DNA of 64,000 nucleotides from Methanococcoides sp. LMO-2 (GTDB taxonomy: Archaea; Halobacteriota; Methanosarcinia; Methanosarcinales; Methanosarcinaceae): contig NZ_JBCAUS010000003.1 of NCBI RefSeq assembly GCF_038432375.1, positions 124,001-188,000 on the forward strand, written 5' to 3'. Made by a program: the position numbers and the translations under genes. Positions 21,695 to 60,769 of the stretch are shown piece by piece (the first letter of the stretch is position 1; the number at the start of each line of letters is the position of its first letter). The notes beneath the pieces are model-generated. The model was not told where the DNA came from. It saw nothing but the letters and a program-made list of their open reading frames with translations, and ran no database searches.

Positions 21695-23209
21695 TCACAG
21701 GACCCTGACCGTGAGGTCAAGGGCCTGCTCATATCCTGTGAGGTTCATCCCCGGTTGCATGTATACAGCAGAGATGTTCTGCTCGCCTGCTGCAACCGCT
21801 TCGATCTCCCATTCATGCTGTCCATAAAGGGAGCCTTCTGATTGCAGGATGAACTCTTCCCCTCTTATCTGGAGACCGTCCGTCAGGGTCATGTTCCAGA
21901 CATAGGTATCGGCTCTGGACTCGAACATTCTGATAAGCATCCAGTCGCCTTCTTTTATCTCAATGGCATCACCGTGATAGTAGCCGTCAACAATGAATGC
22001 CGGATATAGCTCACTATCGCCTTCCACAATCAGGGTAATTTCGAAATTCTCTGGCACAGCAGCCTCACCGTTCCAGGAATTATATTCTGCCAATATTGAT
22101 TTCTCACCAGTGGACAGTGCCTCAAAGGTCCAGCCATAGACTGAATCATCATCCGCAGTGCTGTATACCGAGTAGTACCCATAGCCGTCTTCCTTTACGG
22201 ACAGGTCACCTCTTTCTGAAAGAGACCAGTGCCCATCCGACGGTGCATCAAGGTCGATACGTACAATGCTTCCGGCTTTGACAGATACCGTGCTGCCACT
22301 ATCCTCTTCCGTGAAAACATGGTCTGCAGGCATCTTCTCGATCTCAGGGAAAGCGAACTGGTCGTCTTCCGTCGGGGCCATGCCGATGGAAATTGCAGCT
22401 ATCACCACACCGACAAGCATCACCGGTAAAAGGTAGCGTTTCACGGACCTCTTTGTTGAATCGCTGGCGTTGTCATAGTAGCGTCCTTTGAGCATCATCA
22501 AAAGGACAGCGAAGAGACATCCCAGGAAGAACCAGAGAGCAATGTTATCGGAAAAGTTCGAGAAGAATGTATGAATGCTGTCCATTAGATGGGGAGCAGC
22601 TTCCTCTGGAACTGTTTTTGCAACTTCCCCTGCAGCCTCATCAGCAGCAAGCTGTGGAGCCATGTCCATTGGAGCTTCACGCATAACTTCATCTTCAACA
22701 GCAGCTTCCATCATTGCAGGTGCTGAAAGCATGCCTCCATTTTGTATGTCAACTGGTCTTGACAGGTACTGAAGCCCGGCAGCACCAAGAAATGCAGCAC
22801 CGATAACACCAATGTATTGCTGTAGCATGCTGATTATGGAAGCCCTGTTGACATTCATGCTTCCCGGAGCTACAACGATCAGTTTCTGCACCGGCTCGTA
22901 TATCTTGACCTCACGGCCCTTCTCACTCCACTTGATCCTGTGAACCTTGATAAGATCAGCTTCAAGCAGGCTATCAATATTGTACTTGATGGTTGTAATG
23001 GAAAGACCGAGCTTTTTAGAAATATCCGTTGCAGACATCGGTTCTTCGGAAAGAAGGTCCAGGATCTTCAGGGACTTCTCATTGGAAAGCGTCTGTGTGA
23101 TCTTCTTTGAATCCTCATTGAGCGGAAGTACAACTACATTGTCCGAACTGTCCTGATCAGTATCCTCAGGTTCACCCTTGTTCTTTTTATCAACATCATT
23201 AGCGGCCAT
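21695..23209 (-). CDS. Membrane-bound wHTH regulator with two chagasin-like domains
   Basis: A 504-residue, apparently three-helix membrane sensor. Residues 35-115 form an ArsR-type winged helix (LKILDLLSEEPMSATDISKK, then TTIKYNIDSLLEADLIKVH). Hydrophobic helices lie at about 130-150, 222-241 and 258-278, so the HTH faces the cytoplasm and the C-terminus faces outward. Residues 295-395 and 405-504 look like two chagasin (inhibitor I42) folds: an NPTTG-like APSDGHWSL, then YGWTFEALSTGEKSILAEYNSW; and YGQHEWEIEAVAAGEQNISAVY. Chagasins inhibit papain-like peptidases, and archaeal versions may instead bind peptides. The gene is last in a lipoprotein-wHTH-sensor operon, 20 bases after the shorter wHTH gene, whose sequence resembles its N-terminus. 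DNA targets are unknown. Confidence 0.75.
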   Translation of the reverse strand: MAANDVDKKNKGEPEDTDQDSSDNVVVLPLNEDSKKITQTLSNEKSLKILDLLSEEPMSATDISKKLGLSITTIKYNIDSLLEADLIKVHRIKWSEKGREVKIYEPVQKLIVVAPGSMNVNRASIISMLQQYIGVIGAAFLGAAGLQYLSRPVDIQNGGMLSAPAMMEAAVEDEVMREAPMDMAPQLAADEAAGEVAKTVPEEAAPHLMDSIHTFFSNFSDNIALWFFLGCLFAVLLMMLKGRYYDNASDSTKRSVKRYLLPVMLVGVVIAAISIGMAPTEDDQFAFPEIEKMPADHVFTEEDSGSTVSVKAGSIVRIDLDAPSDGHWSLSERGDLSVKEDGYGYYSVYSTADDDSVYGWTFEALSTGEKSILAEYNSWNGEAAVPENFEITLIVEGDSELYPAFIVDGYYHGDAIEIKEGDWMLIRMFESRADTYVWNMTLTDGLQIRGEEFILQSEGSLYGQHEWEIEAVAAGEQNISAVYMQPGMNLTGYEQALDLTVRVL

Positions 23210-56691: not shown

Positions 56692-57537
56692 TTATCGATG
56701 CTCATCGGGAATTAGAATGACATTTCCCCTACCCTTCTTGAACTTCTCCACAAGTCCCCGGTTCTCAAGATCTGAAACTATCAGGCTGACCTTTGCTTCG
56801 GAATAGCTGAGTTTCGAACGGAGGTCCTTCTGAGTGATCCTTCCACCACCGGACCTGATAATATCAAGTACTTCCTGCAGGTCTGAAGGCAAAGGGGCCT
56901 GCTCCTCCACTTCAACATCTTCAGTAGCTACTGACTCTTTACTGACCTCAGGATCTTCAGGTGATGCCGCCTCCGACCTATCTTCTACAACAGAAGCTAT
57001 TTGCATCCCTTCATCGACATCTTTCTTCCTTTTCTTCCCAGAGAACAGATAGAAACCGGACCCTGCTACTATAAGGATAACAAGACCCGCGATATAGATC
57101 AAAGTACGATCATCGGATTCACCTTCAATTGCTTCTGCGTCTTCTTCCAGTGAAGCGCTGATATTCAAAAGATCAAGGTCCTCTGAAAGATCGCTGTCAT
57201 ATGAGGGAAGAAGGATCAGGTCTATAATATAGTCACCATCATCGGCGATGGTTATGGTTTCCTGAGTGGAAGCCGTAAGCGTGTTGTTCTCGTAATAAGT
57301 TGCGGTGATCAGGTATTCTCCCGGAGCAAGGTTCATGGAATACACACCATATTTCGCCACGATAGACTGTGGCGGTGTGGAGTTCACTTCGATGATCACA
57401 TTCTCCATCAACTGGAAGGTATCCCACTCATAGATAGCACCGTGGATGGTAGCTGTTTCTTCAGCACTTACCGGAACTGCTGAAAAGAGGCATGTTAAGA
57501 CGCATATACTGAGAACAAATAGACTCCTGATCTTCAC
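56692..57537 (-). CDS. Membrane-bound wHTH sensor with external carboxypeptidase-like domain
   Basis: A 281-residue protein with a signal peptide (KIRSLFVLSICVLTCLFSA), an external beta-sandwich of the carboxypeptidase-regulatory type (TIHGAIYEWDTFQLMENVII, then YSMNLAPGEYLITATYY), a membrane helix (about 145-167, IYIAGLVILIVAGSGFYLF) and a cytoplasmic acidic linker. It ends in a winged helix: VLDIIRSGGGRITQKDLRSK, then KVSLIVSDLENRGLVEKFKKG. The layout is the mirror image of the 21.7-kb chagasin sensor: the sensor domain comes first, the DNA-binding domain last. It is divergent from the coiled-coil surface gene at 57908, a possible target. Confidence 0.8.
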   Translation of the reverse strand: MKIRSLFVLSICVLTCLFSAVPVSAEETATIHGAIYEWDTFQLMENVIIEVNSTPPQSIVAKYGVYSMNLAPGEYLITATYYENNTLTASTQETITIADDGDYIIDLILLPSYDSDLSEDLDLLNISASLEEDAEAIEGESDDRTLIYIAGLVILIVAGSGFYLFSGKKRKKDVDEGMQIASVVEDRSEAASPEDPEVSKESVATEDVEVEEQAPLPSDLQEVLDIIRSGGGRITQKDLRSKLSYSEAKVSLIVSDLENRGLVEKFKKGRGNVILIPDEHR

Positions 57538-57907
57538 AGTGCAATATTATGAGAGATAACTATAATAGTTTATTGTTACTCCCAAAGCCATTTTTCAGAT
57601 CTTTTTGACCAGTGATACCAGATTACCTGATGCAAGTCACATATTTTCGGCAAGCATGACAGAGGAAAATACAGCTAATTACAGAAAAATCGGATATTAA
57701 AGTTTTAATTTAAAATAAAAAGATTTTCAAAACTTCTTTTTTACAAATATGCGACCATCAAGTTTTAATGAAATTATAATGCCTGTAAACACCCTCATTA
57801 TTCACGAATGTGAGAGGATGAGTGATCAAGTTCTAAAGTAAGTATATATTCAAATATCCCGAATATTGCTTTGTAAGTTTATTCCATGACTAATGGAGGA
57901 ATCTGAA
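57538..57907. other. Divergent promoter region for the sensor and surface protein
   Basis: About 370 bases without a gene. TATA-like AAGTATATATTCAAA near 57839 suits the gene at 57908, leaving a short leader. Long AT-rich runs (57695-57780) may hold upstream control sites. No hairpin terminator. Confidence 0.45.
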
Positions 57908-59416
57908 ATGAAAAGAGGAACGATGAAATGTTTTGCAATTATCGCTGCTGTACTGATGGTGGTCAGTCTTCTGCCCATCAGTGCACTTGCAGCAAATGGG
58001 GATGGGTTTGAGACTGCTCCGGGACAATTGAAGAAAAATCTTACCGATGATGACTTCGATCCTGCACAGGACAGGGACAGGTTAAGAACAAATTTCCAGG
58101 AAGCTAAGAATGACTATAATAAAATGACATCTGAATTCCAGAATGTCAAGGCTAAGCAGGCAAGAGGTCAGCTTACTTCTGAGGAAATGATCAATGAATC
58201 CAAAGATTATCTCAATGGGACCATTGATTACATGATCATACGCCTTGACAATATCAAGGAAGAGCAGCAGAATGACGATGTGAATGCAACCATTAACGAT
58301 TACATCGCAGAGCTCGAAGAGATTAGGGGAGATGTTGAAGACGCTGAAACAAGAAAAGACCTCTCAAATGCACTGAAAGATATCAGGAAGGTCTGGAAGG
58401 ATGCAATAAAGGATATAAGGGGATTCACTGCACTGAGAGTAGGAGAACATCTCGATGATCACATTGCCAACGCCAATCGCATAGCTGAACGCCTGCAGAA
58501 CGAAATAAATGAAATGGAGCAGAACGGACAGGATGTTGAAGAACTTCAGGAAATGCTTGATGAGTATAACGAACTGATCGCTGAAGCTGAATCACTCCGG
58601 GAAGAGGGAAAGATCGAGGATGCTATCGATAAGACCAGGGAAGCTAACGAAAAGATCAGAGAACTCCTTCAGGAAATGAAGCAAAACAGGAAAGGATTTG
58701 TCCACATGGAAGGCGAGGGACCTCTCAATGCAGAGGGTGACGGAACCATCGTCCTTTCCGGACAGCTTAATGTTACCATCAACGCAACAGATGCAATGCT
58801 TGTGATCAAGGATCTTGAAGGGGATGCATACATCAATGTCACCGGAGAATATGACCTGGTGAATGAAGAAAGAGCAGACGAAGGAGATCATGCACTTGTA
58901 TACCATGACTTCACCGGCGATGCTATCATTAACGGAACCAGGCTCACCATCATGGTACGCGGAGAAGATATGACAGTCTTCGCAGAAGGCTCTGGAAGTG
59001 CTTCACTCTCAGGAGAGGGAAAATACAGGATTGGCGAAGGTAACGAAGCATTTGTAACCGAGTTTGCAGGAGATGCTACAGAAGCTGAAGAAGTTGATGA
59101 TGAAGAAGACGTTGACGATGAAGAGGAAGATGAACAAGAGATCGAGATCGAAGTAAAGATCTTTGAAAATAACGCATCTGCCATAGTGGAAATCGATGAT
59201 ACAGTGGATGAATTTGATCTCAACATGACTGATGAAGAAGAGATCATTTCAGAGATTGAGAACAGAACCTCATTAACAAATGAGCAGATCACTGGTAACA
59301 TCGAGTTTGATTATGAGGACGAAGAGGAGTCTGAAGCTTCTGGAACTGAAAGTGAGGGAACAGAAACAGAAACTTCAGGCCACAATGGAGATGAGAATGG
59401 AAATCAGGAGGACTAA
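57908..59416 (+). CDS. Secreted coiled-coil protein with beta domain and acidic tail
   Basis: A 502-residue precursor, no family recognised. MKRGTMKCFAIIAAVLMVV opens a signal peptide ending near ISALAANG. Residues about 40-265 form long helices rich in Glu/Lys with coiled-coil character (LQNEINEMEQNGQDVEELQE). A beta-rich domain of about 120 residues follows (GEGPLNAEGDGTIVLSG, then FAEGSGSASLSGEGKYRIG), then a highly acidic stretch (DDEEDVDDEEEDEQE) and a Ser/Thr/Glu end. It has several N-glycosylation sites. I start at the sixth codon because GGAGGA is seven bases before it. The lipoprotein gene begins three bases after the stop, so they are co-expressed. Confidence 0.75.
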   Translation: MKRGTMKCFAIIAAVLMVVSLLPISALAANGDGFETAPGQLKKNLTDDDFDPAQDRDRLRTNFQEAKNDYNKMTSEFQNVKAKQARGQLTSEEMINESKDYLNGTIDYMIIRLDNIKEEQQNDDVNATINDYIAELEEIRGDVEDAETRKDLSNALKDIRKVWKDAIKDIRGFTALRVGEHLDDHIANANRIAERLQNEINEMEQNGQDVEELQEMLDEYNELIAEAESLREEGKIEDAIDKTREANEKIRELLQEMKQNRKGFVHMEGEGPLNAEGDGTIVLSGQLNVTINATDAMLVIKDLEGDAYINVTGEYDLVNEERADEGDHALVYHDFTGDAIINGTRLTIMVRGEDMTVFAEGSGSASLSGEGKYRIGEGNEAFVTEFAGDATEAEEVDDEEDVDDEEEDEQEIEIEVKIFENNASAIVEIDDTVDEFDLNMTDEEEIISEIENRTSLTNEQITGNIEFDYEDEEESEASGTESEGTETETSGHNGDENGNQED

Positions 59417-59418
59417 TA

Positions 59419-59670
59419 GTGGCCAGCTTTAAGCACATTGGAATTATCGCAATCCTCCTGATCGGACTCGCTTTCTCCGGTTGTGTGGGTGACCAGCCTG
59501 CAGATGATGAGGTTGATGCCGAAGCACCAACAGCAGATGAGATTCTTGCAGAAGAAGGAGTCGGGCTGACAGATTCAGAGATCGAGGACCTTGAAAGCGA
59601 CCTTGACGAACTGGAAGCCACACTTTCAGAGCTTGATGAGGACGAAAATCTAACCATCGAAGAGGTCTGA
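59419..59670 (+). CDS. Small acidic lipoprotein paired with the coiled-coil surface protein
   Basis: An 83-residue precursor starting at GTG behind AGGAGG. ASFKHIGIIAILLIGLAFSG is a signal peptide ending in lipobox FSGC, so the mature form is about 63 residues, very acidic and helical (EIEDLESDLDELEATLSEL). It overlaps the ribosome-binding region of the preceding gene's stop and is translationally coupled. It may anchor or chaperone the secreted coiled-coil protein; inference. Confidence 0.8.
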   Translation: MASFKHIGIIAILLIGLAFSGCVGDQPADDEVDAEAPTADEILAEEGVGLTDSEIEDLESDLDELEATLSELDEDENLTIEEV

Positions 59671-59911: not shown

Positions 59912-60769
59912 ATGAAGAATATGTTTAAGACCACATTATTGCTGGCATCCCTGACCGGACTTCTGGTCATCGTGGGCCGTCTTGTTGGAGGCCCTACCGG
60001 AATGCTCATAGCATTTGCTTTTGCTATTGTCCTGAACTTCGGGAGCTACTGGTACAGTGACAAGATCGTCCTGAGGATGTACCATGCAAAAGAGGTCACA
60101 GAATCTGAAAGTCCGAAACTGTACGAGATCGTACGCAAACTTGCAATGCGTGCAGACCTCCCAATGCCTAAGGTCTACATTGTTGAAACGTCCATGCCAA
60201 ACGCATTTGCAACAGGAAGAGACCCTAAACATGCAGCAGTTGCAGCCACGACCGGCATCCTTAACCTTCTGACACCGGAAGAGATCGAGGGTGTTCTGGC
60301 ACACGAGCTTGCACACGTAAAGAACCGTGACACGCTTATCAGTGCAGTTGCAGCGACCATTGCAGGTGTTATCACAATGATAGCAACCTGGGCAAGATGG
60401 GCTGCGATCTTTGGAGGTATCGGTGGCAGGGACGATAACGGAGGAAGCAATATCGTAGGATTCATTGCACTTGCAATTGTAGCACCTCTCGCTGCGACCA
60501 TAATCCAGCTTGCAATTTCCCGTTCACGTGAATTCGCAGCCGATGCGGAAGGAGCACGTATCTCACAGAAACCATGGGCACTTGCCAGCGCACTTTCCAA
60601 ACTGGAATCCGGCGCACAGCACTATCAGCCACGCAGGAACGATGTACAGCCAAATGAGAACACGGCACATATGTTCATCGTCAACCCTCTGAGAGGCAGT
60701 TCACTGATGAAACTTTTCAGGACACACCCGTCCACAGAAGAAAGGATACGCAGATTGAACTCAATGTGA
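59912..60769 (+). CDS. htpX: HtpX membrane zinc metalloprotease (M48)
   Basis: A 285-residue membrane protease for misfolded membrane proteins. The zinc motif is [17 protein letters not shown] (HExxH), with the third Glu ligand in [11 protein letters not shown]. Four hydrophobic helices are seen, two before and two after the active site. The C-terminus [16 protein letters not shown] is a family signature. Monocistronic; a TATA-like TTTATATAG lies near 59805. Confidence 0.95.

Follow-up and report, generated by a model that had tools for sequence, protein, structure and literature searches.

To our knowledge, little is known about how archaea detect problems outside the membrane and tune their exported proteins in response. 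In Escherichia coli, the Cpx envelope stress response, which includes CpxA, CpxR, CpxP, and Spy and has HtpX in its regulon, combines transmembrane sensing with secreted helical partners. Among archaea, ArnR and ArnR1 of Sulfolobus are described in the available text of PMC6396743 as membrane-bound one-component regulators that control surface structures, ArnR being composed of an N-terminal helix-turn-helix (HTH), HAMP, a sensor domain, and two C-terminal transmembrane (TM) helices. According to the available text of PMC3729527, MsvR of methanogens is a winged-helix regulator whose sites overlap the BRE/TATA elements and block them.

Here we analyse a locus of Methanococcoides sp. LMO-2 (genome size 2.31 Mb) within a stretch of 64 kb, hereafter the window, in which a sensor gene on the minus strand and a secreted-protein gene on the plus strand are divergently arranged, with a lipoprotein gene downstream of the latter on the same strand. 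We show the set of genes, how they co-occur and are arranged, and a promoter element that recurs across unlinked loci and families. We propose, with a probability of roughly 0.6, that the sensor acts as a membrane-tethered one-component regulator, governs an order-wide regulon of the envelope, and binds this element at its target promoters.

Comparison with known systems

As in ArnR and ArnR1, paralogs acting on several promoters in the available text of PMC6396743, the sensor is an archaeal protein combining a DNA-binding domain with a membrane anchor, whereas it differs from ArnR as described there in having a signal peptide, an outer domain, one TM helix, and a C-terminal winged helix. It has neither the N-terminal HTH, HAMP, nor the two C-terminal TM helices of ArnR, and no archaellum or pilus genes were found at the loci examined. 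With MsvR, as far as the available text of PMC3729527 describes it, the sensor would share a winged helix and a site placed over BRE/TATA, whereas MsvR is soluble, contains a V4R redox domain, and has the site TTCGTAN4TACGAA. The htpX gene adjoins our three genes, which recalls the Cpx response; however, it carries no element of its own here, its adjacency reflects general synteny, and neither a histidine kinase nor a response regulator was detected among the sensor, secreted protein, and lipoprotein in Pfam and NCBIfam searches. Archaeal membrane-bound one-component regulators (ArnR) and BRE-overlapping regulators are thus already known, and this comparison suggests that what is new here is the combination, the secreted partner, and the regulon. 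No description of the gene set or promoter element was found in the open-licence literature, a scope outside which most subscription papers fall, and the available part of a perchlorate transcriptome (PMC8196204) contains nothing on these genes.

Architecture of the three-gene locus

All three genes lie where the initial annotation had placed them according to open reading frame (ORF) calls. The sensor (56692..57537, minus strand; 281 aa, GTG start at 57537), supported by its ORF, a DUF7343 match, and a structural model, consists of a signal-peptide-like N-terminus, an outer domain, one TM helix, and a C-terminal winged helix. The AlphaFold2 model was built from a two-sequence alignment and is of modest quality, its overall mean pLDDT being 55.5; block means range from about 67 to 81 for most of the outer domain and from 56 to 77 for the winged helix. 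In the model and Foldseek searches the outer domain (about aa 29-111; 57205..57453, minus strand) resembles the transthyretin-like domain of carboxypeptidase D (5aq0; E 3.1e-4, TM 0.77 by target length) and also matches carboxypeptidases N and M, the confidence of the model being moderate. No Pfam carboxypeptidase-regulatory or transthyretin-like model matched the sensor up to E 1, so the carboxypeptidase-regulatory-like label rests on fold. The single TM helix (aa 144-164; 57046..57108, minus strand) is indicated by a model helix with block pLDDT below 50 and by hydrophobic sequence. Pfam, fold, and alignment agree on the cytoplasmic winged helix (aa 217-276; 56710..56889, minus strand), which scores 67.6 bits against DUF7343 (PF24034; curated cut-off 27.6) and whose putative recognition helix, judged from alignment, is YSEAKVSLIVSDL. 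A structure search of the model retrieved MarR-type folds for this region, and the Pfam scores for MarR_2 (24.3, cut-off 27) and MarR (18.7, cut-off 24.6) are below their thresholds. The external carboxypeptidase-regulatory-like domain and cytoplasmic winged helix of the initial annotation therefore stand, the former by fold and the latter by Pfam and fold, and so does its remark that the domain order is opposite to that of another sensor in the window (21695-23209, minus strand), where an HTH_20 winged helix is N-terminal (aa 40-89). At its C-terminus this other sensor carries a chagasin-type Inhibitor_I42 domain (E 2.3e-14), which places a protease-inhibitor fold on the outer side of the membrane.

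The sensor and secreted-protein genes are separated by a divergent intergenic region (57538..57907). A palindrome-like sequence, AACTATAATAGTT, is present at 57558-57570, approximately 20-33 nt upstream of the sensor start. A AACTATNATAGTT-like palindrome at the sensor start was considered as a family feature and rejected: only 6 of the 20 intergenic regions of locus A retain it, each of them from Methanococcoides.

The ORF of the secreted helical/beta protein opens at 57893 (507 aa, plus strand), and we place its start at ATG 57908 (57908..59416; 502 aa), which fits a GGAGG at 57895-57899. The model, although weak (mean pLDDT 51, two-sequence alignment), contains a helical region, either a coiled coil or a bundle (aa 57-265 of the 507-aa frame; 58061..58687, plus strand), a beta domain common to the paralog on C2 of the same genome (aa 270-391 of the same frame; 58700..59065, plus strand), and, after the beta strands, an acidic tail modelled at low confidence, in agreement with the secreted coiled-coil/beta protein of 502 residues annotated initially. 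No recognisable structural family emerged from Pfam, NCBIfam, a fold search, and a Pfam scan of relatives: the model had no PDB match with E <0.001, and the sequence profile matched only designed or generic helical bundles. Up to E 1, the protein had no match to the Spy/CpxP Pfam family, nor did Spy/CpxP appear for 26 relatives among the 25 of 33 Pfam families listed (up to E 0.05). Such a protein could serve as a feedback ligand, as a chaperone, or as a structural component of the envelope.

After a gap of 2 nt from the upstream stop, the small acidic lipoprotein gene follows (59419..59670, plus strand; 83 aa, GTG start at 59419), with AGGAGG at 59406-59411 and a lipobox-like FSGC recognised by eye, which agrees with the coupled 83-residue acidic lipoprotein proposed before.

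Conservation and co-occurrence of the gene set

Conservation of the gene set is far above chance. The sensor and secreted-protein profiles were found in 161 and 163 of the 237 genomes of the class, respectively, and together in 153 of them (99 in the family and 54 outside), with the sensor only in 8, the secreted protein only in 10, and neither in 66, counts that come from non-independent genomes of one class. Each of the window proteins was matched in 84 of 85 good-quality family genomes, some of these matches being paralogs. The divergent sensor/secreted pair is present in at least 79 of 111 family genomes, a lower bound, since 98 genomes contributed to this count and most second copies were left out. 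The lipoprotein gene, detected by a loose lipobox rule with homology judged by eye, follows the secreted gene in all 27 copies from 25 loci (window, L062-L081, L086, L087, L166, and L167) outside Methanosarcina-like genomes, locus-B copies being left out, and in 8 of 10 copies in other families. As to Methanosarcina-like loci, no lipoprotein was found after the secreted gene in L096, and one is located 431 nt away in L098. Co-occurrence of the trio, which the initial annotation had itself suggested as a test, is thus borne out by the pair in 153 of 237 genomes and by the lipoprotein in 27 of 27 copies.

It may be argued that the trio is kept passively, as part of an entire conserved block (ligase, homoserine dehydrogenase, ACT protein, and HtpX), and the flanks are indeed conserved in the family. 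However, the divergent pair occurs with different flanks in three genomes of two other families (G113, G153, and G162), which we regard as better evidence since the flanks are conserved too inside the family, and the secreted gene, element, and lipoprotein stay together even where the sensor sits elsewhere. Passive synteny is largely refuted by these other-family loci and strikes us as highly improbable. The htpX gene (59912..60769, plus strand), identified by NCBIfam PRK03001 (392.3 bits) and by synteny, belongs to this general conserved block of the family and is therefore not counted as a component of the trio. Its adjacency was considered as a sign of a Cpx-like unit and discarded: it was seen in 21 of 21 family neighbourhoods as well as the window, but other flanking genes are equally kept. 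HtpX was not labelled in the ten other-family loci, nor in L096 and L098.

A second locus with a MacB-like exporter

A paralogous set, unlinked to the window locus, is present on C2 of the same genome. One of its genes encodes a secreted lipoprotein that has the beta domain in common with the secreted protein of the window; a sensor paralog runs in the same direction, and an ABC ATPase, a CARDB/NEW3 membrane protein, and a MacB/FtsX permease are encoded as well. The set faces a gene for a secreted helical protein. The gene order is the same in the other Methanococcoides second loci examined and takes a varied form in other genera. The MacB_PCD/FtsX permease and ABC ATPase matches (E 2.4e-32, 1.2e-20, and 3.2e-34) assign the exporter to the MacAB type, with which the locus shares these two components, whereas a CARDB/NEW3 Ig-like membrane protein is found where MacA would be, and no MacA/HlyD-type adaptor was detected among the six second-locus proteins of L082 that were scanned.

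A promoter element shared by both loci

By aligning the divergent regions and the second locus, we found a shared block before the secreted genes. In the window, the 14-letter element AAGTAAGTATATAT (57836..57849, plus strand; extended form TAAAGTAAGTATATAT from 57834) overlaps the presumed BRE/TATA of the secreted gene, contains an imperfect dyad (AAG.AT.CTT), and is the sole site scoring >14 in the 64 kb. Conserved letters resembling TTGT.A were also observed close to where transcription is expected to begin, about +35 to +40 relative to the element. An initial pattern matched the genome exactly three times: once at the window locus and once ahead of each of the two divergent genes of the second locus. 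The pattern AAGTAWGYWTATAT, derived from two of the genome's own sites, has four exact sites in 2.3 Mb, the other two of which played no part in its derivation; all lie at the window locus or the C2 locus, the fourth preceding the exporter operon. When one mismatch was allowed in this genome, a related pattern gave 11 sites and its control 11, and these sites, which include a ribosomal protein promoter and coding sites, were treated as chance.

Across 11 genomes of the genus, AAGTAWGYWTATAT has 52 exact sites, whereas the reversed pattern has 3 and a permuted box 4; 38 of the 52 have a listed sensor or secreted gene at a distance of no more than 4 kb. In the remaining 100 genomes of the family there are 245 sites versus 59 for the reversed pattern, with 59 of 98, among those listed, near a listed sensor or secreted gene. 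Altogether, 97 of 150 sites among those listed (up to G063) lie no further than 4 kb from a listed match to the sensor or the secreted protein, and 53 are away from such genes, several inside coding sequence. Sensor-less genomes behave differently: 11 family genomes without a sensor match, mostly of two genera and often incomplete, have 1 site versus 4 in the control, compared with 296 versus 58 in the other 100. Of ten second loci from Methanococcoides, all have the exact element facing the helical gene, eight have it before the lipoprotein paralog, and seven before the exporter.

A scoring matrix was built from 48 sites and applied with a threshold of 8 or more, which 15 of 408 genes reached in the training-region background. 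Overall, 60 of 83 secreted genes are preceded by such a site; among held-out loci the element was found before 20 of 29 secreted genes but 0 of 198 other genes, and in four other families in 8 of 10, with just 75 nt available for scoring in one of the two negative cases. The remaining 23 of 83 upstream regions score below 8; they include entire groups (G065/G068, G073, and several Methanosarcina-like second loci) in which sensors are nevertheless present.

Since the element overlaps the place of BRE/TATA, it might be a core-promoter variant for exported proteins, a BRE/TATA class served by basal factors with no dedicated regulator. The conserved letters near the expected start and the excess of signal-peptide-like genes downstream of sites elsewhere (33 of 47, see below) are in line with this. 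However, four exact sites in 2.3 Mb are too few for a general promoter, and the element is concentrated at sensor loci. Moreover, in three of the ten other-family loci the TATAT end is broken (TTATCT) but AAAGTAT.. is retained, a pattern more in keeping with a protein site than with a core promoter. We consider a pure core-promoter variant quite improbable.

Another explanation is that a different regulator binds the element and that the sensor is a mere genomic neighbour or acts elsewhere. The element is found upstream of the sensor gene itself in no more than 3 of 73 cases, and small HTH genes are found upstream of the secreted lipoprotein (c24, in L095, L097, L100, and L101) or near the exporter (c35, in L082 and L088), which would favour it. 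Against this, neither c24 nor c35 is found in all of the loci examined, whereas the sensor tracks the secreted gene in 153 genomes and the element occurs at both sensor loci; we judge this explanation unlikely. The tethered winged helix, encoded at both loci, is the simplest candidate for the binder of the element.

As a side observation, six loci of one genus (L072, L073, L074, L166, L260, and L264) encode a CSEAK recognition helix, and the promoter variant AAGTATATTTATAT is present in all six. We do not take this covariation as proof of binding, because it is limited to one clade and the same one-letter variant also occurs with unchanged helices elsewhere.

Other genes preceded by the element

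Sites outside the two loci include coding-sequence and unclear ones, and several recur before genes for exported proteins. Extra copies of the secreted gene and lipoprotein with no sensor nearby carry the exact element in G020 (L086) or a one-letter variant in G018 (L087), and the exporter operon of G030, a genome with one sensor only, carries it as well. It also precedes the gene for a small secreted DADGDG-repeat protein in G016, G017, G032, G035, and G037, and a related one in G063. This protein (L148, L149, L171, L172, and L173) is about 100 aa long with possibly calcium-binding repeats, and that of L148 has no Pfam match. In Methanosarcina-like genomes the element is found before genes for PKD-like and helical secreted proteins. 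In L176, L181, L183, L184, and L186 it was observed before a predicted lipoprotein or a VTC-domain protein (E 1.2e-53 in L184), the downstream gene being resolved in L181 and L184. Sixty-two sites were examined for a downstream gene, 15 of which had no downstream ORF; exported-looking products were predicted for 33 of the other 47, versus 60 of 218 background genes (Fisher p 7e-8), with export called by a home-made hydrophobicity rule and some of the 47 belonging to the same helical and secreted families.

In G041 and G057, the element precedes S-layer genes (PF07752, E 2.3e-200 in G041; the G057 protein is 83% identical to it). S-layer control in Methanococcoides was considered and rejected: of 30 S-layer loci, 24 were scored, several with an internal called start, and 6 skipped, and none of the 24 upstream regions was near a site (best score 0.6, compared with about 19-25 for sites). 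As none of the 24 scored Methanococcoides S-layer upstream regions carries the element, the S-layer link is confined to G041 and G057.

A proposed model for envelope surveillance

In the mechanism that we propose, the sensor would be paired with the secreted coil/beta protein and the lipoprotein partner of that protein, its transthyretin-like domain facing outside and its DUF7343 winged helix facing DNA. The winged helix, probably as a dimer, would bind the AAGTATGCTT-like element overlapping the BRE/TATA of its targets, AAGTATGCTTATAT fragments being the predicted target DNA of the cytoplasmic domain. The predicted targets are the secreted/lipoprotein pair, the lipoprotein paralog, helical protein, and MacB-like exporter of the second locus, and further exported proteins elsewhere. 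The outer domain may read the state of the envelope, perhaps by touching the secreted protein or lipoprotein, and alter DNA binding.

Once bound, the sensor would block or, less likely, recruit basal factors, and repression is our first guess as the sign of control, with activation, as in ArnR, as the alternative. An activator would recruit TBP/TFB where the element replaces BRE. ArnR and ArnR1 are membrane-bound activators (available text of PMC6396743) and EarA of Methanococcus works upstream of a weak BRE (available text of PMC13286277), whereas an overlap with BRE/TATA is the geometry of a repressor such as MsvR (available text of PMC3729527). Activation is a realistic possibility, although somewhat short of even odds.

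A fuller form of the proposal is an archaeal circuit of envelope surveillance, present across the order, in which the secreted target and the lipoprotein would act back on the outer domain, providing feedback, and a single BRE/TATA-overlapping element would control the exporter, helical proteins, and, in some species, S-layer genes. We offer this extension tentatively, as less likely than not.

The initial annotation had suggested that the sensor controls the building of a surface structure. The shared promoter element lends indirect support to control of the secreted gene, whereas the surface structure gains none, given a secreted protein of no recognisable structural family and a MacB-like exporter in the paralogous set. 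Envelope maintenance accounts for the list of element-bearing genes no less well than the building of one structure does. If the proposed regulation by the tethered sensor is true, it would provide a regulator and a promoter element that are both defined, together with a short target list, in genera including the genetically workable Methanosarcina, and would thereby make archaeal envelope surveillance directly testable.
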